Origin: a virus
DNA: 55,209 nucleotides
Reading direction: 5' to 3' (one strand)
Virus record (IMG/VR): IMGVR_UViG_3300049846_001695
Location: 1 to 55,209 of that record
The number at the start of each line of letters is the position of its first letter. Position 1 is the first letter of the stretch. Shown in pieces: positions 29,270-52,794 of the stretch. The notes beneath the pieces are model-generated. The model was not told where the DNA came from. It ran no database searches and saw nothing but the letters and a program-made list of their open reading frames with translations. A program made the translations under genes and the position numbers.

Positions 29270-29705
29270 AGGAGTTTTTAAGGTTTACGATAGAAAAACC
29301 GGATCTGTCCATGATAGGCTTTTAGCAAGATTTTCTTGTGACGGAGGAGAATTTAAGATCCTAGAAGACCACTTGGGTATTTTTGAGGACTCATTGCCAG
29401 AAGGCGAGATGACAGATCTTCACTTTAAGTTTTTGGACTCAATTAGGACATCACCGTATCTTCGTCTTTTGTCTGAGGAACAAATAAATAGCGGCGAACA
29501 CGATGATATGATAGACGATCTTGATATAATGGCGCAGCCAAAGCACGAGTTTTTGCTTTACGACGAAAAAACAAATGAAGAACCAATCAAGGTTCACGTT
29601 TTTGATAGTAACTGGGTCGTAAACGGGAAACAACTTCTACCTCACGAGAAAGATCTTTTAATTAAAAGAGTTCAGGGTGGCGAACTAACCATTCACAACA
29701 TATGA
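29250..29705 (+). CDS. Hypothetical companion of the protease-kinase gene
   Basis: This 151-residue acidic protein has no recognised family. The C-terminus NWVVNGKQLL...GGELTI loosely resembles EWFIDGNKAT...GHGTI in the small gene at 41810, which also follows a kinase-like gene. It begins 20 bases inside the protease-kinase gene with AAGAAG and overlaps the GGDEF-like gene by 4 bases, so the three are coupled. It may modulate the neighbouring enzyme, but this is only inference. Confidence 0.65.
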   Translation: MKKQIYKGVFKVYDRKTGSVHDRLLARFSCDGGEFKILEDHLGIFEDSLPEGEMTDLHFKFLDSIRTSPYLRLLSEEQINSGEHDDMIDDLDIMAQPKHEFLLYDEKTNEEPIKVHVFDSNWVVNGKQLLPHEKDLLIKRVQGGELTIHNI

Positions 29706-32260: not shown

Positions 32261-33667
32261 ATGAACGATATTTTAACAAAAATAGAAGAACTTAAGAAAG
32301 CATTCGAATTAGGTTCTTATAACATGGCACCTACCCAGTTGAATCAGGGTAGTGCGGTACAGAAAGAAGATCTTTCGAAGATCATGCATGTTGTAACATT
32401 TGGTGAGAAAGACATCAAGTTACAAAAGGAAGTAAAGGTTGAGAAGGCTAAGGGGCAACTCTTCCAGTTTAACCGTCTATTGTCATACGGTACATTCGGT
32501 GGAACCGCTATGGGTGAAGGTTTGATTGGTCAAGAGGAAACTCCTGACATCATCCGTGCAGCAGTTCCGATGGCTTATTACTCGCTAATGACCCGGCCTA
32601 CACTAGCTGCAACAATGGCTGAAACTTTCGACGGCGTATCAGCCGAAGAGAGAGTAGCTATGGCAGCGGCGATGAAGATTGCCGGTGACGTTGAATTCGA
32701 CCTTTTCAGAGGAAAGGCTGACTTCTCTAACGCAGGCGTATTTGATGGTGCTCCAGAAGCAATCCCTCAACTACCTAACATAGTAGGTCTTGACGTTCAA
32801 GTACGTCAGTCAGACTATTCACTAGATACACAGGACTTAATGTTCGAAGCATATGGTTCTGGATTATCAGTAATCCTATCTGGTGGTGGTACGCTTGTTC
32901 AGTCAACAATCGAAGATGCTTGGATTCGTGGTGTAATGAACTTCTCCAAGGCTGACAGAATGTTTACTGATCCACTAGTTCTATCGAACTACAGCAAGAA
33001 TGCATACGCTTCAAAGGAGCGTTTCAATCTTGGATCAACTGCACAAGAGCCAGTAACGGGTGTCGATATTCGTAGACAGGCCGTTTCAGGTGGTGTAGTA
33101 ACACTAGAGCCAAGCCGTTTCCTATCTGGTCAGACCAAGTGGAAGCGTGCTCGCGTTAACTCACCCGGCGCTCCTTCAGTTGCGCTAAACGGTCAGGTAG
33201 CAAGCTCAACCACATTCCTAAACGGTCAGGTTTACAACTACGTTGTAACTGGTGAAAACGAACTTGGTGAGTCACTACCTTCCGCAGCACTACAGGTAAC
33301 AATCTCCGCTGGCGGAAACCTAGTTAACCTAGATATTACTGCCGGAACTGGTTCTGCTCGTTACTTCAACGTATTCAGAACAGGAGCAGGTGGCGCAGTA
33401 GCAACTGCTAAACTGGTTGGTCGCGTAAAGGCAGCAGTAAGCGGAACTACTCGTTTCGTTGACCGCAACAACCGCCTACCCGGCGCGCAGCCCGCATATC
33501 TAGTAGATATGGAATCAATGGGTATCCACGAACTAGCCCCTTACTCAAGAATCAAGCTAGCCGTAACTGACCTAACCCAGCCAGAAGGTCACTTTAGGTT
33601 CCTAACCCTAGCCGTATACGCTCCTCGTAAGAACGTGCTAGTAGACAACCTAACTGGCGCATTCTAA
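32261..33667 (+). CDS. Major capsid protein with Ig-like insertion
   Basis: This 468-residue protein has capsid-like composition: few Cys, many Ala, Gly, Val and Thr. AGGAG lies 7 bases before ATG. The start contains LKKAFELG (11-18) and QKEDLSKIM, both shared with other head proteins, so the N-terminus may be removed by the prohead protease. Residues about 300-405 (SVALNGQV...YNYVVTGENELGES...YFNVFRTG) look like an Ig/fibronectin-type domain inserted near the C-terminus, a known decoration on HK97-fold capsids. The call is from position, length, composition and strong downstream terminator. Confidence 0.86.
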   Translation: MNDILTKIEELKKAFELGSYNMAPTQLNQGSAVQKEDLSKIMHVVTFGEKDIKLQKEVKVEKAKGQLFQFNRLLSYGTFGGTAMGEGLIGQEETPDIIRAAVPMAYYSLMTRPTLAATMAETFDGVSAEERVAMAAAMKIAGDVEFDLFRGKADFSNAGVFDGAPEAIPQLPNIVGLDVQVRQSDYSLDTQDLMFEAYGSGLSVILSGGGTLVQSTIEDAWIRGVMNFSKADRMFTDPLVLSNYSKNAYASKERFNLGSTAQEPVTGVDIRRQAVSGGVVTLEPSRFLSGQTKWKRARVNSPGAPSVALNGQVASSTTFLNGQVYNYVVTGENELGESLPSAALQVTISAGGNLVNLDITAGTGSARYFNVFRTGAGGAVATAKLVGRVKAAVSGTTRFVDRNNRLPGAQPAYLVDMESMGIHELAPYSRIKLAVTDLTQPEGHFRFLTLAVYAPRKNVLVDNLTGAF

Positions 33668-33724: not shown

Positions 33725-33754
33725 TTGTCTTGAGGACTGTCGTGAGTCTATAAT
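33725..33754 (+). promoter_or_regulatory. Sigma70-like promoter before the GMP reductase-like gene
   Basis: TTGTCT (33725-33730), an 18-base spacer, then a perfect TATAAT (33749-33754). It starts right after the terminator. The -10 overlaps the first possible ATG (33753). The second ATG, 33762, lies 7 bases after the -10, so a transcript could begin at that codon with no leader. Confidence 0.55.
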
Positions 33755-37743: not shown

Positions 37744-38592
37744 ATGGCAGATTATTCAAATTCAAGACCATCTGTAGGCTCTATCTATCCGGTCGGCGCA
37801 CAGGACGCTCAACAATGGCTCCGCGTCGAGCCCCTTTTGACCCCAGCCAATCTCAAGACCAACTTCTTACTTGGTATCCCACTAGTTTCTTATTTTCCGC
37901 ACCCGGTTACTGGCAAGAGAGAGGAGCTTACAGAAGAAGATTTAAAGAGCTATATCTCAAGAGCGGTTTCCGTAGTTGAGCTAGAAACAGGACTAACTTT
38001 ATTCCCGGTTCAATACAAAGAAAAGCACCCATACGATATGAACTTTTGGCGTTCAAACGCCCATGTTCGCGTAAAGCAAAGACCTGTAACATCTGTTGAG
38101 AACTTCTCATTTCAGGCTGCAAACGGTGCGGACTTGCTTGTAATCAATAATTCATGGATTGAACTTGGGCAAGGACACCAAGGACAGATAAATCTTATCC
38201 CAATTCTCCCATCTGTGGCAACAAACGCTGTTCCAGCCTCTATGCCAGCAGCATCGGGTGCAGGATATTTGTCACTATTCGTTGGCGGTCCATTTTGGGT
38301 TCCATCGGTCGTTAACGTTGTTTATACTTGCGGCTATCCAGACGGCAGATTCCCAAGAGTTATAAATGAAATTGTTGGAATAACCGCCGCGATAGACATT
38401 CTGTCATCCCTAGCGGCAACGTATCGTTCCGGCTCTTACTCAATGTCAGTGGATGGAATAAGTCAATCTCAGTCAACTCCCGGTCCACAGCTTTTTGATC
38501 CAAGAATTAAGCAGCTTACTGAAAAGAGAGCGTTTTTGATTGAAAGAATCAAGGAGATCTACGGGCTAAAATTTAAAATTGGGTGGTTATAA
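37744..38592 (+). CDS. Head-tail connector protein
   Basis: Of 282 residues, 62-80 (ELTEEDLKSYISRAVSVVELETGLTLFP) match the N-terminal helical start of phage head-tail connector (gp6/gp15-like) proteins. FWRSNAHVRVKQRPVTSVENF and the late INEIVGITAAIDILSSLA plus RIKQLTEKRAFLIERIKEI helices continue the pattern. These proteins form a ring beneath the portal. The family is fairly clear by pattern. It precedes the large enzyme cassette. Confidence 0.74.
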   Translation: MADYSNSRPSVGSIYPVGAQDAQQWLRVEPLLTPANLKTNFLLGIPLVSYFPHPVTGKREELTEEDLKSYISRAVSVVELETGLTLFPVQYKEKHPYDMNFWRSNAHVRVKQRPVTSVENFSFQAANGADLLVINNSWIELGQGHQGQINLIPILPSVATNAVPASMPAASGAGYLSLFVGGPFWVPSVVNVVYTCGYPDGRFPRVINEIVGITAAIDILSSLAATYRSGSYSMSVDGISQSQSTPGPQLFDPRIKQLTEKRAFLIERIKEIYGLKFKIGWL

Positions 38593-38595
38593 TGT

Positions 38596-41500
38596 ATGGC
38601 AAAGCCAAGCAATTCTACAGAGCGCGAACTAATGCCGGGAGGAGAGGGCGACAACCAGCCTGATTCAAGGTTTAACCCCAAGGATTTAAAAATTGGGGTA
38701 CAGACAGAGCAAAAGGAACACGGCCTAGATCCCAAAAGAGCTAAAGAGGTTGCGAAAGATCATTTAGTTAACAACCCAAAGAATTACTCTATGAAACCAG
38801 AGGATATCTTGGGGTTCATAAAGACAGCGGAAACCTACTTTAATTCTCATACCGAACTAACGAAAGAAGAGTCATTAGAAAAAATGGCTCTTATTTACAG
38901 AAACGAGTCCAAACCAACATATGTTTGGGCCGTTAGAAATAGAGATGGAAGAGGGCCATATACAACGCGCGGCCCTAGCGGGAAGCGCGTTGATTGGGAT
39001 ATTAGTCATTTAAAAAACGACAAAAGACTCAATCCCTATTCATCTGCGTTAGATACGGTTAATCCACCCCCAAACAAGGATTTAGATGATGAAGACTGGA
39101 TCGCGTTTTCGGGCTCTCCAGATAGAGAGGAGGATATTTTTCTTGGTCAGAGCAAATATGATAGGCAGTTTAAGTTTGGCTTTGAAAGACCAGAACACGC
39201 TGTAGACTGGTTCGGTGAACAGGGGTTGCGCGATTTGGCATCACAGGGATTTAAATTGGTAAAACTACCAGCCATAGAAGTTAGACGTTCATCTTCTGGT
39301 CGCCAAATCATGTATAAACCACATAAACCAACAACGTTTCAACATATGGTAGCGGCATTTCCAGAATTAGATCAGGAAACACAAATCCAGTCGCCGCAAC
39401 CGGAGCCGACCGGACTTGAACCAGCGCAAGTCCGTCCAAATCAACTCGGTCATGGGCCAACATTTAAGAGTGAATTAAATAACGATGAACTAAAAAAGGG
39501 GATAATGGCCCCGCTTGTAGTGGGAACTGCGTTAGCTGTGTCTCAAATGACACCCAAGCTAAAAGATGCTTTTGACAGAGCTACTGCACCAGTAACTCAA
39601 CAACAAAAGCCAGTAGCTCCATTTAATCCTAAAACTTTGCATCCAGATATGCACGGTATCGCCTTCCTCGAAAGCTCTTACGGGAAGAGAATGAATCATG
39701 CGGCACATTCTGGAGGAGAATTTGAAACTGCCTACGGACCTCTTGGGTTTAAGCCCTCTACGGCATTTGATGAATTTACAAAGGCAAAGCACTTAACCGA
39801 CATTTATCCACATCTAAAGGATAAGGATAAGTTTCTTGAGGAGTTTAAAAAGAACCCCGACTTCTACAATCTAGTTGCAGGAACACACTGGAACAGATTG
39901 AAGCAAGTAACTGGTTCTGTAAAGAATGCTTCATTTGCTTGGACTCATGGCCTCGGGGCATACAGAAAAGCCACGCCAGCTATTGTTGATAATGATGAAT
40001 ACGTCAACAAATATTCAAAGGTGTCAGAGTCAAAGCCTTGGGCCGCAAAGATGCAGAAGTCGGAATCGTTTAAAAAGTGGAAAGTGGGAGCAAAAACCGT
40101 AAAGGGTTCTCACGTCACTGATTTTGACTACAACCATATGCTTGAGCCCGCGCACCTTAACGGTGGATACTCCGTTAAAATAAATGAGGCAAGGCTACCC
40201 GGCTCGGATGATATTGAAATCGTAGCAAACCTTCAGCACCCAGTAAGCAGGACTCCGGTTGGCTGGGTTGGTGGCGCTATTTCAAAGTTAAATACTGGTA
40301 ATAAGCTTTTTATAGAAAACGCAACAATAAGTGCCCCCCACCGAGGCAGGGGATTTGGAAAGAAGCTTTATGAGGTTCTACTAGCCCACGCCCATAACCA
40401 CCATAACGTTATAGACGCAATTGGTGGAGTGCATTCATCTATGGCTCGCCGCGCCCATGATTCAATCAAAAGAGATTACGAAACAGGATATGAGCCAGAA
40501 AAGAATGTTGGAAAGGACTCTTTTTATTATCCAGATGAAGAGTCATGGGCTGCGACACCAGATGACGCATATGATGAAAAGTGGGGTAAGTACAGACTAA
40601 CACTCAAGATCGAAAACAATCTCTCAAAGGCTTTAAAAGAGTATGAAATGCAAGGGATTGTTGGTAGCGACGCGGCCCGTAAAGCATCGGGTTCTTCTAT
40701 TTCAAAGGTAGATCATTCGTTAATTCCAGAAACGCCACACAAAGAAAATAAACAACACTTCGAACAGCATGTAAACAAGCCTGAACACACACCACCTGTC
40801 TGGAACAGCTTAAACGCCGATCCGTTCGACAAGAAAGAGGATTACGAGCTTGGTGGAGCCGAGAAAATGGTTTTCAACATAGATAATCATAAATATCTTG
40901 TGAAATCTGGAGAAGATGCGTTTGTTGAATCAGCTTGCCAAGGCGTTTACCACGCCGCTGGTCTTGGGCATTTAATGCAACAATCTCATGTTTCTCATAT
41001 ACCCACCCTAAACGATCCACAAAAGAAGGTTCCTGCTTGCGTTATCAAATTGGATCCTAACGCATCTCTATTCATGGAATATAGAGACAGCAAACAAAGA
41101 GACTTCTCTCAACCAATTCACGCCCACAAGACAATAGAGCACTTAAGCAAGAGTGATTACGTTAAAAATCAGGCGCGTCAGTTGGTTTTGATGGATTATC
41201 TATTGGCGAACCACGATAGGCACGGTGAGAACCTAATGATCAAAAAAGATAAAAGTGGCCGTAAGCACGACCTCTTATCCATTGACCACGGCTACAGCCT
41301 AGACTATGATTCATACGCAGAAAAACTGTCTGAATACGTCTACCATACCCCATTCGCCAATATATTGTATGGTTCCGGTCCAATAAATCCAGATAAAAAA
41401 GATTACGAAGCATGGGAAAGCGCCCTAGAACCTATCGTTAAGAATAAAGCTCAAATATCTGCCGCCTTCTATAATCACCTAAGCGCATTACAAGATCCTG

Positions 41501-41622
41501 TTCAGAGAAAGCAATTCTCTGGTAGCTTTGATGTTAGACTAAGGGGTATCGAATCTCTATACAAAAAGTTAAGAGATGGTACAATAGACCAAAAACAGCA
41601 TTTTCTACACAACTATTTATGA
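38596..41622 (+). CDS. Lysozyme-like + GNAT + kinase-like multidomain protein
   Basis: This 1008-residue multidomain protein has a phage domain at about 105-240 (WAVRNRDGRGPYTTRG...FGFERPEHAVDWF) that often occurs alone. Residues 345-475 are lytic-transglycosylase-like: FLESSYG with probable catalytic E359, AYGPLGF, then HGLGAYRKAT. Residues 505-670 are GNAT acetyltransferase-like: RGRGFG (583-588) and HSSMA. Residues 740-1000 are HipA/PI4K-like: YLVK, NHDRHGENLM (D874, N879) and SIDHGYSLD (D897). It could cut peptidoglycan on entry and carry enzymes into the host, an inference. It overlaps the next gene by 4 bases. Confidence 0.72.
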   Translation: MAKPSNSTERELMPGGEGDNQPDSRFNPKDLKIGVQTEQKEHGLDPKRAKEVAKDHLVNNPKNYSMKPEDILGFIKTAETYFNSHTELTKEESLEKMALIYRNESKPTYVWAVRNRDGRGPYTTRGPSGKRVDWDISHLKNDKRLNPYSSALDTVNPPPNKDLDDEDWIAFSGSPDREEDIFLGQSKYDRQFKFGFERPEHAVDWFGEQGLRDLASQGFKLVKLPAIEVRRSSSGRQIMYKPHKPTTFQHMVAAFPELDQETQIQSPQPEPTGLEPAQVRPNQLGHGPTFKSELNNDELKKGIMAPLVVGTALAVSQMTPKLKDAFDRATAPVTQQQKPVAPFNPKTLHPDMHGIAFLESSYGKRMNHAAHSGGEFETAYGPLGFKPSTAFDEFTKAKHLTDIYPHLKDKDKFLEEFKKNPDFYNLVAGTHWNRLKQVTGSVKNASFAWTHGLGAYRKATPAIVDNDEYVNKYSKVSESKPWAAKMQKSESFKKWKVGAKTVKGSHVTDFDYNHMLEPAHLNGGYSVKINEARLPGSDDIEIVANLQHPVSRTPVGWVGGAISKLNTGNKLFIENATISAPHRGRGFGKKLYEVLLAHAHNHHNVIDAIGGVHSSMARRAHDSIKRDYETGYEPEKNVGKDSFYYPDEESWAATPDDAYDEKWGKYRLTLKIENNLSKALKEYEMQGIVGSDAARKASGSSISKVDHSLIPETPHKENKQHFEQHVNKPEHTPPVWNSLNADPFDKKEDYELGGAEKMVFNIDNHKYLVKSGEDAFVESACQGVYHAAGLGHLMQQSHVSHIPTLNDPQKKVPACVIKLDPNASLFMEYRDSKQRDFSQPIHAHKTIEHLSKSDYVKNQARQLVLMDYLLANHDRHGENLMIKKDKSGRKHDLLSIDHGYSLDYDSYAEKLSEYVYHTPFANILYGSGPINPDKKDYEAWESALEPIVKNKAQISAAFYNHLSALQDPVQRKQFSGSFDVRLRGIESLYKKLRDGTIDQKQHFLHNYL

Positions 41623-41813
41623 TAAAAATTAGAGTTACCCATTTAACTAATCACGAAGCGCCAGAAACAATCGCTGCACCAGATGAAGATGCCCTGCGCC
41701 ATATTTTAATAGATAAGTATTCAAGCCTGAGAAAAAAAGGTTTCGAAACCGCATCAGAGATGATAAAGTATCTAAATAAGTCTCAGTTTATTCATATTGA
41801 AAGGATACCATGA
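41619..41813 (+). CDS. Small protein resembling the N-terminus of the kinase at 50623
   Basis: Sixty-four residues. The pattern MIKIRVTHLTNHE...PDEDALRHILIDK...ASEMIKYLNKSQFIHIERI matches residues 1-59 of the protein at 50623 (MKIEIYNHATGRS...GDEHQILEWISK...LDDVLEDINQNQNFEAIV) in length and hydrophobic order. Here it stands alone after a kinase-like gene. It might bind or regulate the kinase. Both ends overlap neighbours by 4 bases. Confidence 0.62.
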   Translation: MIKIRVTHLTNHEAPETIAAPDEDALRHILIDKYSSLRKKGFETASEMIKYLNKSQFIHIERIP

Positions 41814-42037
41814 AGCCAATTATATACATTTACATAGCGGAAAATGGGGAAAAACGAACGTTGGTTAATACCGATAACGAATGGTTCATAGACGGGAACA
41901 AGGCCACTGAGCGGGAGGTAGCGGCAATCTTTAAAATGGCTCAACAGGGCCACGGCACCATTTCCGGTGGTTCAAAGCATAAGGTGCTTCATATCCCTGA
42001 AAATGAGCTAATGTCTAAATGGATTTACGGTGATTAA
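41810..42037 (+). CDS. Small hypothetical companion protein
   Basis: Seventy-five residues. The first strands (MKPIIYIYIAENGEK) are followed by EWFIDGNKATEREVAAIFK and an HGTI segment. A loose resemblance to the end of the protein at 29250 is noted. AAAGGATACC precedes the ATG. No family is recognised. The stop lies 3 bases before the next ATG. It may be a regulator or chaperone of the adjacent enzymes, unproven. Confidence 0.62.
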   Translation: MKPIIYIYIAENGEKRTLVNTDNEWFIDGNKATEREVAAIFKMAQQGHGTISGGSKHKVLHIPENELMSKWIYGD

Positions 42038-42040
42038 CCT

Positions 42041-45000
42041 ATGCCAGATAACAAGCAAACCCCACCAGCCGAGCCAGCGGAATTTCTACCTCAGTCTGTG
42101 CCCACAGAGGATGATGTACAAACTCAGTCACTAAAGACGCTATTCGGCTCTACGGAAGGTGAACCTGCCCCCATCGAACAACCCCCGGTTTATGACGAAA
42201 TCTTAACGTCCATCCCCAAGCCCTCGGTCCTTGCTAAGAAGTTGGAAAAATTCAAGGACAGTAATAAAAGGCTGTTAATCAGACTTGGGCAGAATTCCAA
42301 TGTTGATAGCGTAACAGAAAACGGAAGCAACTCACCTTCTGGGATGCTTGATAGCCACAGGACTCGTTATAAAAACATAGATTACGATTTTTCAGACTTC
42401 CACCTCCACCCTAAAAGCTCTAAATTTCTACACGATTTTCTTGACAATTCGGTTAGTCACCACGAGCTTTTTCTAAAACCAAAGACACTGGATTCTTTTG
42501 AAAAAATAGTAGATTTTAAGTTAAAGGTGAAAGATAAGGACTTGGAGTCCACTTATGACCCCGTGTACGATAAAGAAGCTTTTCAGCAATACTCGTACAA
42601 TCTAGCCGATTTTTTTGAGGCGGCAGATAAGAATTCCCCGCTACACAATTTAGTGGAAAAAGAAATAGCTCCCAAAAAGCTATTTTTCAATTCTCAAAAT
42701 AGGAATGCGGTAATTGACTTCGTAAACAAAAGTTCGCACCCATCTTTTTTGGCTGCATCTATCTTCCACAAGAACGTAGGTGGATTAAATAGATATGCCA
42801 AAAGTTTAAATGTAGATTGGCCAGAAGTTTTTGAACATATGTTCTTTACTAAAGAACTAGACAAAGATTATTACGAATACACTAGCTACGATAATCAGAT
42901 CGACGACTTCCTTAAAGACAACCCGCAGGCAGAGGAAGACATAAAACAGGCTTCAAATTTTGATGTTAATGAAGACTCAACAAGTCTTCAAAAGACGTTG
43001 TATGTTTTGCAAAATATTGATGGCGATAAGTTCCAAAACATACTTAGCAAGAAAAAAGAGCTAAGATCTCTGTTTACAGATAATGAAGTCGGTGAATTTT
43101 ACGCTTCCCCACGCAGATTGATTATTGAGAAATTCTCTTCACAGAACCCTGTCGATGACGAACAACACATTGTTGATGCGAACGCACTCATACAAACGGG
43201 GATTATGCCGATATTTAATCTCGTTAGAGCGGTCGGTGCATTGACGGAGAGGGGCCCGGTCCAATACGTCATCGGCCCTCTTGATGATAAGGTCATTACA
43301 GATCATTTCTTAGATCCAAACTACAACTCTGGGTCTTTGTCGGATGGCATATACGTTAACGGGTTTTTATTGAGCAGACTTCACGATCAAAATAAGCCAG
43401 CGTTTATAGATTTAATGAATAGTCCAGAGGTGGGCAGCAATTCTGTTTTTGAAGCACTAAGTCGCACTATTGGAATTGCGGGCGATCATGGTTATTACGG
43501 TTACAAAACCTATCCGCTAGAAAGAAAACAAGCTTTCGATCTGTTTGATACATCTATAAATCACTTAGGCAAAGATCAACTTAGAAGGCTTGTGTACTTC
43601 AGTCACATACCTTCAACTGTCAGATTCATAACTAACAAAAACGCTGAAACAAAGCCGATGACGGTTGAAGAAAATAAGAGTAACACTGAAAACACCCTAG
43701 TCAAAATGGCGGAAGCAAACCCCTCTGTTTTCTTGAAGGGAGATAATAACGTATACGGAGAACTTGAACATCGAGGAATGCCCGATGTTGGATCTCGCGT
43801 CTATCAAAGAATTCTGTCCATGCCACCAGACCAGCTTTTCCATAATCCGATGTTTGAATTTTCGCCGGGGTCTGTTGGGGCCAATATGTTGGACTACATA
43901 GACGTACTTGAGCAAAGAAAAATAGCGACTCTTCCTCGCCAACACATAGATTTCCTAGTTAAAAAGGCTACAGAAGTAGAAGTCCCGCAAGATGCATTTC
44001 CAAGCGAAATATTGTCTGCGATAGTTCGAATACTAGAAACATCCGCAACGCTAAAGAACTTCGATAGTGAGGCTCATGGCCATCCGCTTGTCAATAAGGC
44101 GCTTCAGGCCTTTGATGAAATACATCACAGATCCTCTATTTCACTGGCTTTGTCTGATTTTTATAAGTCGCTAAGTGAACCAGCAATGAAACAGTTTAAG
44201 GAGCCCGTAGACAAGTTTCTCGAAGGGTTCATGGGCAGAATGCTGGATGGAATCATAAAAGACGCCGCAGCAAATAATTTCTACACACCAGATCGCGCCC
44301 CACACCAAAACAAACCGTTTGCCGGAAATCCAGTTTTGTCAGCAAAATACTACGACGCACTTGTTCAAAAATACCTTGAACACGACAATCTTGGCCCGCC
44401 AGATTCTCAAATACAGAAATATATATCGGCGGCAACAATGTCTTCATATGGACAAGCTTATTCTGACGATATCGTCTTAAACGCAGAAAAAAGCACCGCT
44501 CCAGATTTGTTTTTATTCCAAAAGACTCCAGTAATGAGGATTCCTAGTCAGCTAGCTGTATTTAGCGATAACGCTAAGGCAAGTGTGGTAAAATTCTTGC
44601 TATCTAAGAAGAATAAAAACGTTATTTGGAGAATTAGCGCAAATGATGTTTCTTCTCATCAACAGTTCGTAAAGAAGAACGTTATATTCCCGGCCCTAGG
44701 CGCGAAGTTTTTTGAGCCAATTTTTGAAAATTATACTTCAGCCTTCCCCACTGTCGAGGAGCAGTTAAGAAGCATAGGCTATGTTTCGGAGGCTATGGAA
44801 ACACCCCCAAAGGAAATTTCTGTTGGTGGTGCCGGTAATATATCAAAAAGATTCTTGATTGAATTAATGAATAAATTCCCCGAATCCAAGATTACGGTTT
44901 CGGATTGGAACGCTCAATTCCACAGCGAAATAAATATAAACGATGAAAATGATTCTGTTTCGTTTGAGGATCTCACAAGGATATTTAGGGCTAATCCCCC

Positions 45001-47608
45001 AAAGGCAATTGAAGTTCCCGAAGCACTTTCGTATACCAATAGAAAGGAGTTTAGAGTCAATGAAGCTTCGTTAGCTCTAGTAAAGCGAATTTATGATCAG
45101 CTAGAGAAAACTCCAGAATTGGTATCAAACGATGTAATTTTCAACAATTTACGCGCCGCATTCAGTGGCCTCGATTTTACAGACTTCCCATTCCATAGGC
45201 TTTTTAGCGTTCCGGGCGGCTCCCGCCGCACGAGGCCCGAGTTGGGCTCGAAGGAAGAGTTTGTAAAATTGGGGACTAGATTCGCTGGCGTCGATTTTTT
45301 GAAGAATGTATTAAGGACAGAAGATGACTACGAAGTTTCGACTCTCCCATATCACATTTTTGAGCCATATCTTCCGCAATTAAAAAGCCTTGTAGATGAA
45401 ACTAAATTCTTCCCGTCTGAGGGGTGGTCGGCTTCATCTTTGGCTGGGCTAAACAACCTGCTTTCAATAATGAATAAAGAGGTTTATAACAAGAAAGAAA
45501 GTAGCGTTTTTTCTTACGATTTCCTTGATTACGCAATAAATAAGATGGCTATAGATGTAGTTGGAGAAAGCCATGAACACTACATTGAAAATAAGGATAC
45601 TTTGATAGTAAATCCAAAAAATATCCACAATGTATTGTCTCGCCTTTTTGTTAAAAAATATCTTCGCCCAGAATCTTCATTTGATTCGCTACCAAAACAG
45701 CCGGATGTCAGAAGGCTTGTTGCAGCCTCAATGTTTGAAAACTTTGATTCTCTTCAGATTGAAAGCTTTTGCTCAGACGGGGAAGAAAATAAAGCAAAGG
45801 TAGGGGAGGTACTATCCTCTCTCTTAGATGAAAACGGTGAAATAAACTTTAGCAATTTAGATGTAGAAAGATTTATAAAAAATCGCGTATATAGATACTA
45901 CAACAGTTTCCTGTCTGGGCTGATTAGTTCTGTATATGCCGATGCCCCGGCTGAAAAAGTAGACAAGGCGTTTGACACTCTTTTTAGAGAGAGCAGGCAT
46001 GACATGAGTTCATTTATGACTGATTTCTCTACTGATTCATCAAAATACCACAGCGCGTTTTTGAGGTTCGCTGGCAAATTCTTGAATACTTTCTTTACGG
46101 ATGACAAAGCTCTTGAGTTAAATATAAGATCGTTTGAGGACGCAGCCGGTACTCTTATCCGTCGCATGTTTGAAAGCGATGGTCATTTTCAAACGTATGC
46201 CGATGAAATTTACTACAATTCTCCTAAAACGCTTATAGATCAATTAAACCATCAGTTTGCCGGTCTGTTTGATGGGGGCGGAGAAATTGACCCATTAAAG
46301 AAAGCCAGAAGAACTGCCATTAAGAGCGCCTTTATTGAAATTTTCAATAAACAGAAAGGGCATTTTAATGCTTATTTAGATGAAATGCAGAAAGCCCTTA
46401 TTGAGATTTCTAAGAAAACCAAGATACCATTCGGTATTTTTAACGATTTGTCTTCAAAAGACTTTGAAGATTTAGAATCAGAAGAAACAAAGAATATCAT
46501 AAAGGATTACCTTAAGTTTCAAGAGGGGCTCATTTCGTCTATTAAAACCATTGGTGAAATTAAACAACTACATCCATCTATCATTCTCAAGAATCTGCAC
46601 CTTTTTGGATTACACGATTTTAGTGAGTTCTTACAGGACGCTAGTAACACAAATTTGAAATCCAAGATCGATCCAAACCTTCTGAAGTTTGATTATTTGG
46701 ACCCCGACAAAGCCAGCGACTATAACCTAATAATTCCTCTTGCTTCAACTTATGGTAATTGGCTTTCCGAAGTAGAGAAAAGTGATTTACCTCGCGCAAA
46801 CAAAATGAGGTACGGTGTCAAGCAGATTAGGCTTATCTGGGACGGGTTTTATCAAGCTTATACCCAAAAAGTTAAGCCTTCTCACTTCGCTAAGGTCAAA
46901 AGTGCGTTTATGACAAACGATGCTCCAGTGTCGTTTGCTCATAGAAACAAAGTTCAGCCATCTACAGATCAAAGGTTTGATGGGGAATATATGAGATTCT
47001 TGACAAAGGTTTCTCAAGAGGTTTTAAGGAAGTTTATTGAAACCGAGTCTTATAAGAAACATTGGCCAGATTTTAACGAAAAAAGAATACAGCGAGATGC
47101 TAACGGAGAGCTTGTTTTTATATTAAACCGAGGTGTTTCTGGAGATTTTGCGTACCAGCTTTTGCAGAGTATGGGACATATAAGTCAAACCGGAGATCTA
47201 CTTGATCACAAAGATATAGAGGGTAACTTGGTTACGGTGTCTGAACTTCCGTTCTCTAGTTACGCTCACAGTTTTGGTGCTTCAGCGCCCTTCGCCAACA
47301 GAAGAGATATGAGAAGGGCCGATGGATCTAGGCAGCATATGTCTGGGGTTGTGTTTTCTCAAAAAATCCCAATAAGCAGGATTTTGTTATGCGAGGTTTT
47401 GGGGCTTGGACCGGGGTTTTCTCATACGCACATTACTGAAAGAGAATGGCTCATCCTAAACCCACTAGAGCAGCTAGTGCTTAAACCAGAGGACGTTATG
47501 TCTTATTCTTTGAATGGAACCGTAAAATTCAATGAAAAACACGATCTATTCAATGAGACTCAACGCGGAGGCCACCTATATGGCGGCGAGCTTGGTGGAG
47601 AAGATTAA
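42041..47608 (+). CDS. Giant protein with ADP-ribosyltransferase-like C-terminus
   Basis: This 1855-residue protein is mostly helical with no domain I recognise in the first 1650 residues, apart from a Pro/Glu-rich start. The C-terminal 170 residues follow the R-S-E ADP-ribosyltransferase pattern: FILNRGVSG with R1697, PFSSYAHSF (S1739-S1744) as the STS-like strand, and ITEREWLIL with E1800 and E1802 as the ExE site. Such enzymes transfer ADP-ribose from NAD to host proteins, as T4 Alt does after ejection. The R is LNRG and STS is SSY, so activity is uncertain. It is the largest gene in the window. Its stop overlaps the following start. Confidence 0.66.
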   Translation: MPDNKQTPPAEPAEFLPQSVPTEDDVQTQSLKTLFGSTEGEPAPIEQPPVYDEILTSIPKPSVLAKKLEKFKDSNKRLLIRLGQNSNVDSVTENGSNSPSGMLDSHRTRYKNIDYDFSDFHLHPKSSKFLHDFLDNSVSHHELFLKPKTLDSFEKIVDFKLKVKDKDLESTYDPVYDKEAFQQYSYNLADFFEAADKNSPLHNLVEKEIAPKKLFFNSQNRNAVIDFVNKSSHPSFLAASIFHKNVGGLNRYAKSLNVDWPEVFEHMFFTKELDKDYYEYTSYDNQIDDFLKDNPQAEEDIKQASNFDVNEDSTSLQKTLYVLQNIDGDKFQNILSKKKELRSLFTDNEVGEFYASPRRLIIEKFSSQNPVDDEQHIVDANALIQTGIMPIFNLVRAVGALTERGPVQYVIGPLDDKVITDHFLDPNYNSGSLSDGIYVNGFLLSRLHDQNKPAFIDLMNSPEVGSNSVFEALSRTIGIAGDHGYYGYKTYPLERKQAFDLFDTSINHLGKDQLRRLVYFSHIPSTVRFITNKNAETKPMTVEENKSNTENTLVKMAEANPSVFLKGDNNVYGELEHRGMPDVGSRVYQRILSMPPDQLFHNPMFEFSPGSVGANMLDYIDVLEQRKIATLPRQHIDFLVKKATEVEVPQDAFPSEILSAIVRILETSATLKNFDSEAHGHPLVNKALQAFDEIHHRSSISLALSDFYKSLSEPAMKQFKEPVDKFLEGFMGRMLDGIIKDAAANNFYTPDRAPHQNKPFAGNPVLSAKYYDALVQKYLEHDNLGPPDSQIQKYISAATMSSYGQAYSDDIVLNAEKSTAPDLFLFQKTPVMRIPSQLAVFSDNAKASVVKFLLSKKNKNVIWRISANDVSSHQQFVKKNVIFPALGAKFFEPIFENYTSAFPTVEEQLRSIGYVSEAMETPPKEISVGGAGNISKRFLIELMNKFPESKITVSDWNAQFHSEININDENDSVSFEDLTRIFRANPPKAIEVPEALSYTNRKEFRVNEASLALVKRIYDQLEKTPELVSNDVIFNNLRAAFSGLDFTDFPFHRLFSVPGGSRRTRPELGSKEEFVKLGTRFAGVDFLKNVLRTEDDYEVSTLPYHIFEPYLPQLKSLVDETKFFPSEGWSASSLAGLNNLLSIMNKEVYNKKESSVFSYDFLDYAINKMAIDVVGESHEHYIENKDTLIVNPKNIHNVLSRLFVKKYLRPESSFDSLPKQPDVRRLVAASMFENFDSLQIESFCSDGEENKAKVGEVLSSLLDENGEINFSNLDVERFIKNRVYRYYNSFLSGLISSVYADAPAEKVDKAFDTLFRESRHDMSSFMTDFSTDSSKYHSAFLRFAGKFLNTFFTDDKALELNIRSFEDAAGTLIRRMFESDGHFQTYADEIYYNSPKTLIDQLNHQFAGLFDGGGEIDPLKKARRTAIKSAFIEIFNKQKGHFNAYLDEMQKALIEISKKTKIPFGIFNDLSSKDFEDLESEETKNIIKDYLKFQEGLISSIKTIGEIKQLHPSIILKNLHLFGLHDFSEFLQDASNTNLKSKIDPNLLKFDYLDPDKASDYNLIIPLASTYGNWLSEVEKSDLPRANKMRYGVKQIRLIWDGFYQAYTQKVKPSHFAKVKSAFMTNDAPVSFAHRNKVQPSTDQRFDGEYMRFLTKVSQEVLRKFIETESYKKHWPDFNEKRIQRDANGELVFILNRGVSGDFAYQLLQSMGHISQTGDLLDHKDIEGNLVTVSELPFSSYAHSFGASAPFANRRDMRRADGSRQHMSGVVFSQKIPISRILLCEVLGLGPGFSHTHITEREWLILNPLEQLVLKPEDVMSYSLNGTVKFNEKHDLFNETQRGGHLYGGELGGED

Positions 47609-48867
47609 TGTTTTCTGAGATTTTTGATAAAGTTGAGAAAAAGTACGGGTTTAAGGCTAGACACAATCTGGCTGTAAATATGTACAACGCAATTCCTCAA
47701 CAATTTAAGCACGTTGTTGAAGACTTTGGACAAACACAGAAAACAGACCCCCGCTTTTGGCATGAATCGCGCTTAAACGCAATCCATTCATATCTAACAG
47801 ACCCATCTGTTCAGAAGAAGTTTCATTACGCTAAGGGACACATTTCTCAGCAGGAGCTTGAAACGCCGGAAGATAGGCCAACAAACGTTACTCATGTTTC
47901 GTATCTGGAAAACATGGGTAAGGCAATGCATTTTTTGCACTCATTGTCTACCAAGATAGACCCTAAATGGCTTAAGGGGCCGGTTCTACATAAGACGGAA
48001 GAAGAGTTTAGCGTTTCGGTAGATGACGCTATTAACATCTATTATTCTATTGGGGAATATGCTGAAAAATACTCCCCGGAGTTTGAGGCCGCACAGGTCT
48101 TGGCAGATGGGTATATTCCTTCCGACGATGAGGTTTTAGATGCTGTCAAGCAACACGAGGGCGACCTCGTTTCTATAGCTCTTATGGCCCACGGTCTTGA
48201 AGTAAATAGCGAAAACAAAGAAAAGCTAAAGGAGATGTGCGTTCTCAAGAAAACCACCCACTTTAAGGGCTTTCAGAAATTGGGGGTAGAAAATAGAAGA
48301 GAAACTCCGATCGTTGGTGGACAAGCCCTAGAGAATAAAAAGAAACTTCTAGTTGCTGGGGTAGAAAGAGAGCTAGGGCAGAAAGTCCCTCCCAAGGTTA
48401 AGCAGTCCGCAATGAAACAGAAATTCGGCGCTTCTTCTAGAAACCCCAATATTGCGGTTTCCTATGTTTCTGCAACCCCTCCTCAAACAACCGCAGGTAA
48501 AGATCCTAAAACGGTTATAGCCACAAAGGAGCACGAGGATTTTCATCAAACTTTAAGGATGGTTTCTAGAAAATACGGGCCGGAAGTTAAAAACGACATT
48601 TTAAACAAGATATGGGACACAATGCCAAAAGAAGGCAGAGATGCGCTATCTATATTCCTATCATCTAGAGTCGGAGTTAATGTAAAAACTCCAGAACAGG
48701 CCAAAGAAGAAGCAATGGCGTATGTTTTTAACTACCTCAATTCCCCCGGCGAAAGACAGTCGTTCCACAAACTGCACGGTCACAAAGATCCGAGGTTTAA
48801 CCTCAAGATGAAAATGGCTTTTAGGCATATACAAGAAGTCGCCAATAAGATAAAATTGAGAGGATAA
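47608..48867 (+). CDS. Putative zinc metallopeptidase with internal duplication
   Basis: These 419 residues contain HEDFH (309-313), an HExxH site, in TKEHEDFHQTL. A possible third ligand is E367/E368 in EEAMAYVFNYL, about 55 residues later, a gluzincin-like spacing. The segment after the zinc helix (VSRKYG...NKIWDTMP...FNYLNSPGERQSFHKLHGH) repeats the N-terminus (VEKKYG...VNMYNAIP...HSYLTDPSVQKKFHYAKGH), so the gene holds a duplicated helical domain, only the second with the zinc site. It starts within the stop of the giant gene. Host cleavage is possible but unproven. Confidence 0.68.
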   Translation: MFSEIFDKVEKKYGFKARHNLAVNMYNAIPQQFKHVVEDFGQTQKTDPRFWHESRLNAIHSYLTDPSVQKKFHYAKGHISQQELETPEDRPTNVTHVSYLENMGKAMHFLHSLSTKIDPKWLKGPVLHKTEEEFSVSVDDAINIYYSIGEYAEKYSPEFEAAQVLADGYIPSDDEVLDAVKQHEGDLVSIALMAHGLEVNSENKEKLKEMCVLKKTTHFKGFQKLGVENRRETPIVGGQALENKKKLLVAGVERELGQKVPPKVKQSAMKQKFGASSRNPNIAVSYVSATPPQTTAGKDPKTVIATKEHEDFHQTLRMVSRKYGPEVKNDILNKIWDTMPKEGRDALSIFLSSRVGVNVKTPEQAKEEAMAYVFNYLNSPGERQSFHKLHGHKDPRFNLKMKMAFRHIQEVANKIKLRG

Positions 48868-48868
48868 G

Positions 48869-50626
48869 ATGGAACCACTTCAAAAAATGGCGGTAAGAGA
48901 TATTGCTCATGGGGAAAGACTCCCCAACGGAGATTTCTCTTATACAAAGGCCCTACCGGAGCATTTACAGTCAGAATATGATCTAGTTGTGGCTCAGTTT
49001 CAGGGCTCGCGTGGAGCCCAGCTAGGCGATCAAGCATCCTCTCTGGGCGCGTATATATACCATAAAAAAACCAACTCTGAAATCGGAAGAGTAGGCATGG
49101 GATTGGACCGTGGCGAAGGTGAGATAATTTCTGCGTCCGTAGACAAAGACCATACAGGCAAGGGGCTTGGAACCGCAGCGTATGAGGCGTTAATTGCCCA
49201 CGGTCGCAGATTTCATGGATTAAAGAGAGTTGTCGGCAGTTCGCACAGTTCAATGGCCCATGGGACGCATACTAAATTAATGCAAAAACACCCCGAGTGG
49301 GAGGGGTACGAGCCAGTTAAAATTGGCGAAGAAAAAGGACCGTTTGATGATGCTTGGGGTGATTACGAATACACCATTAAGGCAGAGTTAATGAAAAAAG
49401 AGGACTTGAGCAAGGCTCAAGATCCAAAGGGATTCCACGAAATTCTCAAACTATCAACTCCGCTTGGCGACAAATACGTTGACCACAAACCAGACTTGTC
49501 TGCTCACCCACCTAGTATTCATAGCGAAGTACATGCCTATAGAAATGATATTCAGGCAAGCCCCGGCAACTTCAAAAGCAAGAGAGTTCGCGGCGAAGGC
49601 GTTGGCATTTCGCAAAAGAATATTTTTACGCATCCAACTGGCACGAAATTCATGGTTAAACCATACCATGAAAGAGTTATCAAGCGCGTTAAAAATTGGC
49701 AGCAGTTTCCAATTCAGGGCTGGGCAGAAATGACCAACCAATCCCTATACCACTCCGCTGATATCGGGCACTTACATCAAAAGGTTCATGTTTCTGAGCA
49801 TAATATGCAAAGGAATGACTCTACAGATGCTACAAGCTCCAGAAGTTTAGCTACTCGCCAGAATCAACGACGGGGCGGCACAAATGAGCCAGCCCTCGTA
49901 ATCCATATGGAGCCAAATCTTTGGAGCCTTAGTGATGTACTTAGAGGCAAATTTGATTTAAATAGCGAACCAGTTCACAAAGACATTCATGTAGATGATC
50001 TTTTTAACATGCCGGAATATAAAGATCCAAACCTTGAGTGGAGAGGTGACTGGCGCACAACTCCAACTGGTCCCGCTCAGTATTACAAAGCGTTTAGAAA
50101 GCAGACTGTAACTCCTAAAAAGGAAGATCTTCAAAAAATAGCCGTTATGGATTTTTTGAGCAATAATCTAGACAGGCATTACGGCAATCTGATGTTTAGA
50201 GAGGACGGGACTCCATTAGCAATCGACCATTCTCGTAGTTTCCAGTATGCAAATACTCACGAAACCAAGGGTTTTCCACGTCACCATGTTGCTTCACTAC
50301 CAATGGACAAGAAGGTAGATTCTATATCGCATTATATAGAAAAAGCTCCAGCAATGTATCAGGTTTTGTATGGCAAAAACCCATCTACAGAGTGGGAAAA
50401 TACAATTAACAATTGGTGGCCTACGGTATCCAAAAAAGTTGTCCAGACAATGCAGGCACGCCTACAGCAGATCAAAGATCCAAACGTCAGGAAGCACATT
50501 GAAAATAATTTCATGGCTAGAGTTAAGCACTTGGATGAAATGGCTAGTCTAGATGTGAATAATTTTGGACAATTCGATTGGCACGAAACTCCGGTGCCAC
50601 ACTATTCTTTCGGTGAGAATCCATGA
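48869..50626 (+). CDS. GNAT acetyltransferase + kinase-like fusion protein
   Basis: The 585 residues have an N-terminal GNAT-like part: IGRVGMGLDRGEGEIISASV, then DHTGKGLGTAAYEALIAHG (TGKGLG 96-101) and SSHSSMAHGTH. The last segment parallels the HSSMA of the protein at 38596, so the two acetyltransferase domains are homologous. A linker with MKKEDLSKA (175-183) leads to a kinase-like domain (240-560): TKFMVKPY, VMDFLSNNLDRHYGNLMF (D435, N440) and LAIDHSRSF (D453). Targets are unknown. It starts 1 base after the metallopeptidase stop and overlaps the next gene by 4 bases. Confidence 0.74.
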   Translation: MEPLQKMAVRDIAHGERLPNGDFSYTKALPEHLQSEYDLVVAQFQGSRGAQLGDQASSLGAYIYHKKTNSEIGRVGMGLDRGEGEIISASVDKDHTGKGLGTAAYEALIAHGRRFHGLKRVVGSSHSSMAHGTHTKLMQKHPEWEGYEPVKIGEEKGPFDDAWGDYEYTIKAELMKKEDLSKAQDPKGFHEILKLSTPLGDKYVDHKPDLSAHPPSIHSEVHAYRNDIQASPGNFKSKRVRGEGVGISQKNIFTHPTGTKFMVKPYHERVIKRVKNWQQFPIQGWAEMTNQSLYHSADIGHLHQKVHVSEHNMQRNDSTDATSSRSLATRQNQRRGGTNEPALVIHMEPNLWSLSDVLRGKFDLNSEPVHKDIHVDDLFNMPEYKDPNLEWRGDWRTTPTGPAQYYKAFRKQTVTPKKEDLQKIAVMDFLSNNLDRHYGNLMFREDGTPLAIDHSRSFQYANTHETKGFPRHHVASLPMDKKVDSISHYIEKAPAMYQVLYGKNPSTEWENTINNWWPTVSKKVVQTMQARLQQIKDPNVRKHIENNFMARVKHLDEMASLDVNNFGQFDWHETPVPHYSFGENP

Positions 50627-51684
50627 AAATAGAGATTTACAATCATGCCACAGGCCGCAGCGAGCACATGCGCGGTGACGAGCATCAAATTTTGGAATGG
50701 ATATCAAAAACACTTCCTTGGCTAAATGTTCGCAAAGGGGAATTGCTCGATGATGTTCTTGAGGACATAAATCAAAACCAAAATTTTGAAGCAATTGTTT
50801 CTGGAGAAACGGATTTAACAAAGAACGATGGTCGTATTGTTATAGAACCATTCACAGATCTCGACAAGGCTGGTGCAGCATTGGCTCAGAGAGCCCTTCA
50901 AAAGAATTCTATAAAGCCAATTAAGCTCAAGGGCAAGCATACTGCCGGGACTTCTTTGTTTTTGGATGAAATCAACCATATCGTATGGCTACTAAAGCCG
51001 GGTCGCGGCGGGATATCAAAGGCTCGTGGCGTTTCTGAAGAAAATGCATCTGGATCGAGGCGCGAAGTCGCGTTTAACGCAATAGCGTCAAAAATAGGTC
51101 TTTCAAACTTCGTCCCTCAGTCATACCTGTTAGAAGTTTCTGGTGAAGAAGTAGCTATGCTTCAGTTCTTTGCAGATGACTTCGATAATCTAAATCATGT
51201 ACGCAGAGAGCGCACTCCAGATTCCATTTTTCAGCCATATGTAAGCAACGGGGTACTGCACAGAATAGCTTTCCTAGACTACCTTTTAGGACAGACAGAT
51301 CGTCATGCAGGGAACGTTCTCGTAAATAAACATACTGGAGAATTTAAGCTAATTGACGCCGGGTCGGCATTTGCTGGCCCCAGCTTCTCTCCAACAACAG
51401 ATAGTCGCTCATTTATTCCCGTCTATTTGAGGGGGGTGACTTCTAACGAGTTTTCAGTATTAACTCCACAAGAAAGATACCAAAGAATGCCAAAACCCTC
51501 ATTATCGGGGCAGGAAGGCTTAAAAGTCTGGGTGCAAAACTTGCCCGAAGGAGTGATTATCAATCTATTAAATAAATACGGAATAAATCCACAGCCCGTA
51601 ATGGACAGGCTACAAAGGGTAAGGGACTATAGTGGTCCGGTACACGAGTTTTTGAATAAGTTCTGGTCTGGTGTTATTTTATGA
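50623..51684 (+). CDS. HipA/PI4K-like kinase protein
   Basis: Of 353 residues, 1-59 form a small domain also found alone at 41619. The rest is kinase-like: VWLLKPGRGG (nucleotide-binding Lys), SGSRREVAFNAIASKIGLSN, FLDYLLGQTDRHAGNVL with D226 and N231, then FKLIDAGSAF with D245. It is the clearest of the four kinase-like copies, with an intact DRHxxN and ID-G pair. Family kinases phosphorylate proteins or lipids. The substrate here is unknown. GGTGAG precedes the ATG, which overlaps the upstream stop by 4 bases. It also contains FTDLDKAGAALA, related to the recurring motif. Confidence 0.76.
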   Translation: MKIEIYNHATGRSEHMRGDEHQILEWISKTLPWLNVRKGELLDDVLEDINQNQNFEAIVSGETDLTKNDGRIVIEPFTDLDKAGAALAQRALQKNSIKPIKLKGKHTAGTSLFLDEINHIVWLLKPGRGGISKARGVSEENASGSRREVAFNAIASKIGLSNFVPQSYLLEVSGEEVAMLQFFADDFDNLNHVRRERTPDSIFQPYVSNGVLHRIAFLDYLLGQTDRHAGNVLVNKHTGEFKLIDAGSAFAGPSFSPTTDSRSFIPVYLRGVTSNEFSVLTPQERYQRMPKPSLSGQEGLKVWVQNLPEGVIINLLNKYGINPQPVMDRLQRVRDYSGPVHEFLNKFWSGVIL

Positions 51685-51986
51685 AGATTTCTAGAGAGCA
51701 GTTAAGAGGCGACCCCAAAAAGATAGGCAAGACCAAGAGCGGAGATGTTTTTCACATCTCTACCAAGGGCGGTTTTAACATAATCATGTTAAAGGGGGAG
51801 AAGGAAACAAAAATGCTAGGTGCCGCCCCGCACATTGCTATTGCAAAGCATATAGCAAAGAAGAATGCCGAGGACTTGGTGTATTTTGAGCTATCGAAGG
51901 CAGATGAGCAAATAGACGTATTTTCACACCTTATTCCAGTTTTCGAACAAGTAACCAGAAGATTGGCGGAACAATTAAATGGCTAA
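51681..51986 (+). CDS. Small hypothetical companion protein
   Basis: These 101 residues begin MKISREQLRGDPKKIGKT and include a KMLGAAPHIAIAKHIAKKN helix and FELSKADEQIDVF, close to the recurring LSKA motif. It overlaps the kinase gene by 4 bases and the next gene by 8. It follows the kinase in the same way small genes follow the other kinase-like genes, so it may be a cognate partner (inference). No family is recognised. Confidence 0.66.
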   Translation: MKISREQLRGDPKKIGKTKSGDVFHISTKGGFNIIMLKGEKETKMLGAAPHIAIAKHIAKKNAEDLVYFELSKADEQIDVFSHLIPVFEQVTRRLAEQLNG

Positions 51987-52794
51987 ACCCGGAATTCCAC
52001 TTTCTCTTCCATACGAGAAAATAACATTAGATGACGCGGCCCTGCAATCCTTTATCAAGGACAGCGGACCTGTATTCTTGCATTATAAGGCAATTCCTTG
52101 CCCAATTGGCAAGATAGAGAAAATGTCTATCAGGTCGCCGCACTCAGAGCACAATGAATGCTCTAACGGATTCATCTATGAACTTGCTGGGGAGTTTAAG
52201 GCTCCGTTTACATCGAATGCCGCCCAACTTCAGTTAACTGACTTGGGTATTCTAGACGGTTCTACCGCTATCGTTACCATTCCACAACATTACGATAACA
52301 ACGGTAAGCAAATCTACATAAATACTTACGATAAGCTATATATCAAGGACAATGTTGTTTTAAGTACATTTAGCGAAGAAGTTGAATGTTCAATAACGGG
52401 ATTCGATAAGCTCACCTTCCCTGTAGTTGATGTAGAGTTTTTAATAGATAGCAAAGGAAAGAGATACGAGAAAGACGCCCACTTTAGCGTTGTAAACGGC
52501 GGCATTTCTTGGCTAACAGATGATCGCCCCGGCTTCGATGTTTCGATAAACAAAGGCGTTGTTTATTCTATTAGATACTTGTACGTTCCTTTCTACTATG
52601 TATCAAGACTTCTTCACGAGATCCGAATAATCGCTGTAGCTAATCTAGATGGCAGCCTGACCTACAGGAGAGGCCCGTATCAAATATCTATTGTAAGAGA
52701 GAAGTTCTTCAATAAGAATCAGCCAACAGAAAATGAACCACAGGAGCAGTCTACTGCCGTATCTCCCGGTACGGGCTTGTTTGGGGCGAAGTAA
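51979..52794 (+). CDS. Virion structural protein, neck or head-closure candidate
   Basis: These 271 residues are mixed beta-rich: LHYKAIPCPIG, ECSNGFIYELAGEF, DKLTFPVVDVEFL, GGISWL, YLYVPFYYVSRLLHEIRI and GPYQISIVREKF. This arrangement recurs in phage virion proteins near connectors, but I cannot give a family name. A Glu/Gln-rich tail ends the protein. It is cotranscribed with the preceding small gene (8-base overlap). No enzymatic residues are seen. Confidence 0.68.
   Translation: MAKPGIPLSLPYEKITLDDAALQSFIKDSGPVFLHYKAIPCPIGKIEKMSIRSPHSEHNECSNGFIYELAGEFKAPFTSNAAQLQLTDLGILDGSTAIVTIPQHYDNNGKQIYINTYDKLYIKDNVVLSTFSEEVECSITGFDKLTFPVVDVEFLIDSKGKRYEKDAHFSVVNGGISWLTDDRPGFDVSINKGVVYSIRYLYVPFYYVSRLLHEIRIIAVANLDGSLTYRRGPYQISIVREKFFNKNQPTENEPQEQSTAVSPGTGLFGAK

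Follow-up and report, generated by a model that had tools for sequence, protein, structure and literature searches.

A hypervariable slot in an Mx1-like phage head operon holds mosaic multi-enzyme proteins with a putative head-protease motif

The 55.2-kb linear virus record IMGVR_UViG_3300049846_001695 (hereafter the window, meaning the whole stretch of 55,209 nucleotides that was analysed) is a fragment of a tailed phage related to Myxococcus phage Mx1, an isolated phage with a 169.6-kb genome (OR576727). Its right half encodes a terminase, a portal, a head maturation protease, a major capsid protein (MCP; phrog_752) and connector genes, and among these portal-terminase late genes lies a cassette of large genes for multi-enzyme proteins, the subject of this analysis. 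The portal, protease, MCP, thyX, connector and downstream structural genes follow the same order in the window as in Mx1, and the window MCP is 52% identical to that of Mx1 and about 25% identical to those of the SPO1 group. The cassette open reading frames (ORFs) all lie on the plus strand and overlap or abut one another; they encode five larger proteins, P1 to P5, and several small ones (Table 1). A first-pass annotation, made from the letters of the window, had described these overlapping genes and had placed them between connector and structural genes; both statements hold, with a connector-like gene (phrog_772/442) at 37744 and a virion structural gene (phrog_1004) at 51979.

Most of the enzyme domains that had been read from motifs were recovered by profile searches. 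The Pfam family PI3_PI4_kinase (PF00454) matched P1 (E 2.6e-9), P4 (E 1.6e-7) and P5 (E 4.4e-7), each above the 27.1-bit cut-off, and all 14 members of the P5 kinase family have the catalytic K, E, D, N and D residues unchanged. Similarly, GNAT domains (PF00583) scored 22.1 bits in P1 and 27.9 bits in P4, against a cut-off of 20.7. The lysozyme-like segment of P1 is 41% identical to a segment of Mx1 and belongs to a family present in 28 of the 45 slots of relatives described below; some members of this family match the Pfam SLT transglycosylase. Single polypeptides therefore carry multiple enzyme domains: lysozyme, GNAT and kinase in P1, and GNAT and kinase in P4.

The two remaining large proteins gave less. 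P3, proposed as an HExxH peptidase candidate, contains a domain in which H14, E15, H18 and the downstream E72 and E73 are invariant in six homologues. The AlphaFold model of this segment is helical and confident (predicted local distance difference test, pLDDT, 88); fold searches gave no significant match (best viral match E 0.035, template-modelling score 0.54), and a profile search of the PDB returned nothing useful. We thus regard P3 as a candidate metallopeptidase, with its motif conserved and its fold unmatched. P2 had no match in Pfam, PHROG or the PDB, and tblastn of pieces of P2 against phages and plasmids gave chance matches only; likewise, single-sequence scans of IMG/VR with P2, its C-terminus, P3 and P4 found nothing. 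The AlphaFold model of the P2 C-terminus had a pLDDT of 32 and no usable fold, and the ADP-ribosyltransferase (ART)-like end that had been assigned to P2 is unverified.

To place the cassette in context, we retrieved 69 relatives from IMG/VR with an alignment of the window and Mx1 MCPs, and delimited the corresponding region by the families of the connector (37744) and of phrog_1004 (51979). We found that this region is a slot embedded in the head operon of the 69 relatives and of Mx1. Across 45 slots of relatives the borders are conserved and the content is variable: the slot measures 0.68 kb, with a single 169-amino-acid gene, in two relatives (L016, L017), more than 11 kb in others, and 13 kb in the window. 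Lysozyme domains occur in 28 of these slots, PI3/PI4K-like kinases in 19, NUDIX domains in 14, GNAT domains in 8 and HExxH domains in 7. Counted over 73 slot proteins, Pfam matches comprise 21 PI3_PI4 kinases, 14 NUDIX domains and about 10 GNAT domains, as well as SLT; single slots add ART-PolyVal, PBECR5, radical SAM or DUF3626, and a SAM lyase occurs in two proteins. Short slots mostly retain the lysozyme gene, and large slots are domain mosaics with proteins of up to 2,067 amino acids. The N-terminal domain of about 65-70 amino acids that precedes slot kinases, including that of P5, also exists on its own in other slots, encoded by small ORFs.

The search for the same gene order in phage genomes thus succeeded: both the head operon order and the slot recur in Mx1, and the slot recurs in the head operons of the relatives. 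The Mx1 slot carries an orthologous kinase (40% identity), lysozyme (41%), GNAT (32%) and 101-amino-acid protein, and alongside its GNAT, NUDIX and lysozyme domains it encodes a clear ART-PolyVal domain (2.8e-16). It differs from the window in that NUDIX and ART-PolyVal replace P2 and P3, and its genes are annotated only as 'NUDIX hydrolase' and 'kinase'. The polyvalent-family domains ART-PolyVal and PBECR5 occur in relatives' slots, whereas the window's own domains match general families only. Together, these results identify the region as a hypervariable slot in the Mx1-like head operon, filled by mosaic multi-enzyme proteins that are probably polyvalent cargo.

Unbiased short-pattern counting in the slot proteins revealed a recurrent tripeptide, KSE. 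(Our first guess at a cut motif, (E/D)LxK, was dropped once this counting had given KSE.) In slot proteins of at least 200 amino acids, KSE was observed 69 times against 17.9 expected from composition, and five permuted tripeptides occurred 11-27 times each. The residue two positions before the lysine is hydrophobic in 59 of the 69 KSE sites, compared with 8 of 79 permuted tripeptides (p=9e-28). The resulting motif, [LMVIF]xKSE, thus occurs 59 times in slot proteins, against 4.3 in local shuffles (maximum 11 among 300). We found the same motif in the family of the scaffold candidate, encoded immediately 5' of MCP: 82 occurrences against 2.1 expected, present in 26 of 27 members, with the hydrophobic flank preference shown there independently. 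The motif was also enriched in the portal (6 versus 1.1) and protease (13 versus 1.7) families, and was absent (zero occurrences) from the connector, phrog_1004 and thyX families. Genome-wide, in Mx1 and two relatives with complete or near-complete genomes, 34 occurrences fell in the head module, which makes up 23% of coding sequence, and 4 elsewhere (odds ratio 28, p=6e-18); permuted control motifs lacked any head-module bias in these three genomes.

The motif is placed between, rather than within, enzyme domains. None of 52 slot-protein sites lies inside a recognised domain, although such domains hold 32% of residues (p=2e-9), and many sites lie about 10 residues past the end of a NUDIX or lysozyme domain. 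This test used domain cores; when segments shared between slot proteins were taken instead, KSE was not depleted from them, since such segments contain linkers as well. In the window, the canonical motif occurs twice in the portal, twice in the scaffold candidate, once in the gene at 53967 and once in P1, at residue 488. In Mx1, KSE lies at residues ~311, 610 and 1255 of slot protein WNM70333 (1479 amino acids) and at residue ~224 of slot protein WNM70334 (619 amino acids).

Scaffold proteins carry many Glu-ended protease sites, and portals and internal proteins are cut as well. Head proteases characterized in other phages cleave after Glu: the SPN3US motif is AXE (PMC10052503), and that of phiKZ is S/A-X-E, to which the T4 motif is described as highly similar (PMC9026906). 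Since [LMVIF]xKSE fits both this Glu-ended pattern and the distribution over scaffold, portal and internal proteins, we read it as a probable head-protease cleavage site. The main alternative is that the motif is a docking peptide, a loading signal that joins cargo, portal and scaffold in the prohead, with the cargo packaged uncut; this would equally imply association with the head. The many copies in the scaffold candidate, with at least one in cargo and portal, would suit docking, as would the different motif borne by MCP and protease. Against docking stand the placement of sites outside domains and about 10 residues past domain ends, a terminal Glu like that of all known head-protease sites (PMC10052503, PMC9026906), and the sites near both termini of the portal, a protein that is cleaved in SPN3US. 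We therefore consider docking unlikely, if the most credible of the alternatives.

The predicted processing enzyme itself carries unusual features. Of 13 members of the 27251 gene family, which includes WNM70322 of Mx1, 7 match phrog_1028 (head maturation protease), and His58 and Ser150 are invariant; a profile search of the PDB with the protease returned nothing useful. On the 3' side of the protease domain lies a tag of about 30 residues, KALxAGxYNxAPSxLxGGxALQxED. In about 20 members this tag resembles the conserved N-terminus of MCP closely enough to match it, and no other protein searched contains it. (The MCP N-terminus itself, residues 10-40 of the product of 32261-33667, is almost invariant in its family and ends in AL[QM]xED, a Glu-ended motif other than KSE.) The part that follows the tag is variable in length, with whole genes of about 300 to 1,639 amino acids, and is PI3/PI4K-like in the window (E 2e-4), Mx1 (0.019) and one further relative (L008; 1e-4), all below the Pfam cut-off; the window copy scores 21.8 bits against the 27.1 required by PF00454. 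The window thus has a fourth kinase-like domain, outside the cassette range. That the head protease serves as the processor of domain-shuffled multi-enzyme polyproteins (kinases, NUDIX enzymes, GNATs, ARTs, lysozymes) for injection, and carries its own kinase cargo behind the MCP-like tag, is in our judgement an evenly balanced proposition.

We propose the following model, in which the steps from entry into the prohead onward are ones we infer. Slot polyvalent proteins would be made alongside the head proteins and enter the prohead, where the head protease would cut them between domains at the [LMVIF]xKSE sites that they have in common with the scaffold candidate. Separate kinases, acetyltransferases, lysozyme and other enzymes would thus be freed within the capsid, stay in the head and exit with the DNA at infection. 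The lysozyme may then help passage through the cell wall, and the kinases, GNATs, ARTs and NUDIX enzymes may at once modify host proteins or act on nicotinamide adenine dinucleotide (NAD)/nucleotide defence signals. Taken as a whole, from cargo slot through cutting to ejection of separate enzymes, we consider this explanation probable. The first-pass annotation had pictured a virion-packaged, ejected effector set: head packaging gains support because the slot sits in the head operon and because the predicted protease motif common to scaffold candidate and portal recurs between enzyme domains, and ejection is retained as a prediction.

Several observations weigh against this model. We identified the motif post hoc, and its sites include homologous ones that are not independent. 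Domains likewise hold few copies of the control pattern K[TA]E (1 of 34), and so the domain avoidance of KSE is partly an effect of composition. Within the window cassette the canonical site occurs in P1 only; P2, P3 and P4 have variants (KSD, KTE, KKE) and P5 has none, and the case for P2-P5 thus rests on relatives. MCP lacks KSE and has the different conserved motif AL[QM]xED. A search of the slot proteins for a common N-terminal targeting peptide or the MCP-like tag found neither. The 31295-32245 family is a scaffold candidate by its position and its A/E/K-rich composition only, and no ART is confirmed in P2.

Three other explanations were weighed against cleavage by the head protease. Iyer et al. 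favour self-processing of polyvalent proteins by embedded metallopeptidases (PMC5512222), and the packaged proteins could be processed in this way, in the head or after entry, by the conserved HExxH...EE domain of P3. We think this quite improbable: only 7 of 45 slots have a P3-like domain, whereas KSE sites are widespread and tied to scaffold and portal, and the window encodes P3 as a protein of its own. Alternatively, the slot genes could be morons, ordinary late-expressed enzymes that stay unpackaged and work inside the producing cell, as the plainly metabolic thyX and IMP dehydrogenase-like genes of the head operon might suggest; yet KSE, abundant in slot proteins, is missing from thyX and replication proteins, and the lysozyme domains of 28 of the 45 slots suit entry better than an intracellular role, so we hold this reading to be very doubtful. 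Equally doubtful is a slot of neck or tail parts, with wall-drilling virion-associated lysozymes and the other domains as passengers of structural proteins: the two flanking connector-type genes and the lysozyme as sole recognisable enzyme of most short slots fit it, but the extreme variation in size and content does not, the L016 and L017 slots hold little beyond the 169-amino-acid gene, and the slot borders themselves lack KSE.

The first-pass annotation held that no described system has this combination of activities. This is incorrect: phage polyvalent proteins (Iyer et al. 2017, PMC5512222) combine ART, kinase, GNAT, metallopeptidase and lysozyme domains, all five classes; their genes lie close to late genes, and packaging and injection have been predicted for them. 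The slot proteins are likewise large multidomain proteins encoded by late genes, with the same classes of domain and, in Mx1, ART-PolyVal itself; this kind of multi-enzyme protein is therefore already known. The differences are threefold. The kinases here match PI3_PI4_kinase, set apart by description from the truncated Ser/Thr/Tyr-kinase clade of Iyer et al.; the predicted processing enzyme is the head protease, acting at a motif shared with the scaffold candidate, and not an embedded metallopeptidase; and the genes are gathered in a single slot whose borders are fixed, within one phage family. For myoviruses, too, it has been argued that ART, Macro and NUDIX proteins are packaged (PMC9503650).

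Other packaged-protein systems offer partial parallels. In T4, head-core cargo (Alt, IPI-III) is cut by the gp21 protease at Glu-ended motifs and ejected; Alt, an enzyme that modifies the host, is trimmed at both of its termini (PMC9026906). Here, by contrast, we found no homology to Alt (P2 has no Pfam or PHROG match), the predicted cut sites lie between several enzyme domains and not at termini alone, and no capsid-targeting propeptide was recognised. SPN3US and phiKZ, with their gp245-type protease, have Glu-ended motifs (AXE; S/A-X-E), propeptides, portal processing and a mass of ejected proteins (PMC10052503, PMC9026906); their motif differs from ours, and the cargo here has recognisable enzymes. 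The Dar system of phage P1 is a set of large internal proteins, some of them protease-processed, that are ejected with the DNA against host defence (PMC12810830, PMC5512222). Unlike that system, the slot proteins have no Dar domain among their Pfam matches, and phage P1 is without a separate scaffold protein.

In a search of open papers, we did not find described any head protease that processes cargo between its enzyme domains at a motif shared with the scaffold; nor did we find a fixed slot with shuffled content in an Mx1-like family, the dominance of PI3/PI4K-like kinases, or a tagged protease-kinase fusion. For the entry of polyvalent proteins into heads and their separation into enzymes, the putative cleavage motif shared with the scaffold candidate offers a direct, testable route. 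The motif may also provide a simple sequence flag for head cargo in unannotated phages and, if our model is correct, the many packaged PI3/PI4K-like kinases would represent a new class of injected phage effector.

Table 1. Head-operon and slot features of the window, with residue numbers counted within each protein.
Feature	Position	Strand	Remarks
Portal	24599..26566	+	canonical KSE sites near both ends, residues 21 and 622
Head maturation protease	27251..29269	+	domain residues ~1-215, MCP-like tag, C-terminal kinase-like cargo
Tag 'KKAFELGGGDVAPSARTGMAALASE' in protease	27950..28036	+	resembles MCP N-terminus; E<=1e-4 in 20 relatives, window copy alone E 0.56
Scaffold/core protein candidate	31295..32245	+	KSE-rich, residues 30, 217, 262
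Major capsid protein	32261..33667	+	phrog_752; N-terminal tag also in protease
Slot left border, head-tail connector-like	37744..38592	+	phrog_772/442
P1, 1008 aa	38596..41622	+	phrog_1106-like N-terminal part, lysozyme-like, GNAT, PI3/PI4K-like kinase
KSE tripeptide, P1 residues 291-293	39466..39474	+	5' of lysozyme domain; non-canonical, no hydrophobic residue at K-2
Lysozyme/transglycosylase-like domain, P1 residues 352-475	39649..40020	+	Pfam SLT in family members
MxKSE site, P1 residues 488-490	40057..40065	+	canonical, between lysozyme and GNAT domains; predicted head-protease cut
GNAT domain, P1 residues 510-639	40123..40512	+	
PI3/PI4K-like kinase domain, P1 residues 765-988	40888..41559	+	
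Small ORF, 64 aa	41619..41813	+	weak match (E 0.25, near full length) to N-terminal domain of slot kinases, e.g. 50623
Small ORF, 75 aa	41810..42037	+	no relative found
P2, 1855 aa	42041..47608	+	no homologue found; C-terminal putative ART by motif only; KSD variant residues 1580-1582
P2 region with ART-like R...SxS...ExE motif, residues ~1650-1830	46988..47530	+	read from sequence alone, unverified
P3, 419 aa	47608..48867	+	duplicated domain: C-terminal copy HExxH...EE (metallopeptidase candidate), N-terminal copy degenerate
HEDFH motif, P3 residues 309-313	48532..48546	+	
P4, 585 aa	48869..50626	+	GNAT 23-153, PI3/PI4K-like kinase 251-565; LMKKE variant site 176-178 between them
P5, 353 aa	50623..51684	+	~70-aa slot-specific N-terminal domain, PI3/PI4K-like kinase 100-348
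Slot protein, 101 aa	51681..51986	+	relatives ELSKSE at ~75; window ELSKAD
Slot right border, virion structural protein	51979..52794	+	phrog_1004

Further observations concern the slots of relatives and the neighbouring genes. In four relatives (L081, L090, L095, L097) the slot encodes proteins of 1.5-2.1 thousand amino acids with few or no recognisable domains, resembling P2; such domain-poor giants are a large pool of undescribed candidate cargo. Short slots (L012, L016-L018, L023, L024 and others) encode a protein of about 168 amino acids with an invariant KSE at about residue 73, often together with one of about 118 amino acids. Scans of genome contigs gave two contigs from metagenome-assembled genomes (Planctomycetaceae, Elusimicrobia), too few to name a host.

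Between the protease and MCP genes, window positions 29702-30379 encode a 225-amino-acid GGDEF/mCpol-like nucleotide cyclase (Pfam GGDEF, 4.6e-11), which is kept in relatives and annotated in Mx1 as 'nucleotide cyclase'; it is possibly another packaged enzyme. Immediately 3' of the MCP gene, positions 33753-34847 hold an IMP dehydrogenase/GMP reductase-like gene (phrog_9582) that, among the relatives examined, is common only to two (L004, L005). Further upstream, the window encodes a phage GroEL (13049-14797; phrog_5725), a family with a gene in Mx1 too, and a nicotinamide mononucleotide (NMN) adenylyltransferase-like gene (15842-16444). Positions 119182-127421 of Mx1 hold genes for a nicotinamide phosphoribosyltransferase, an NMN adenylyltransferase and a macro-domain protein, which suggests NAD handling alongside the Mx1 ART.

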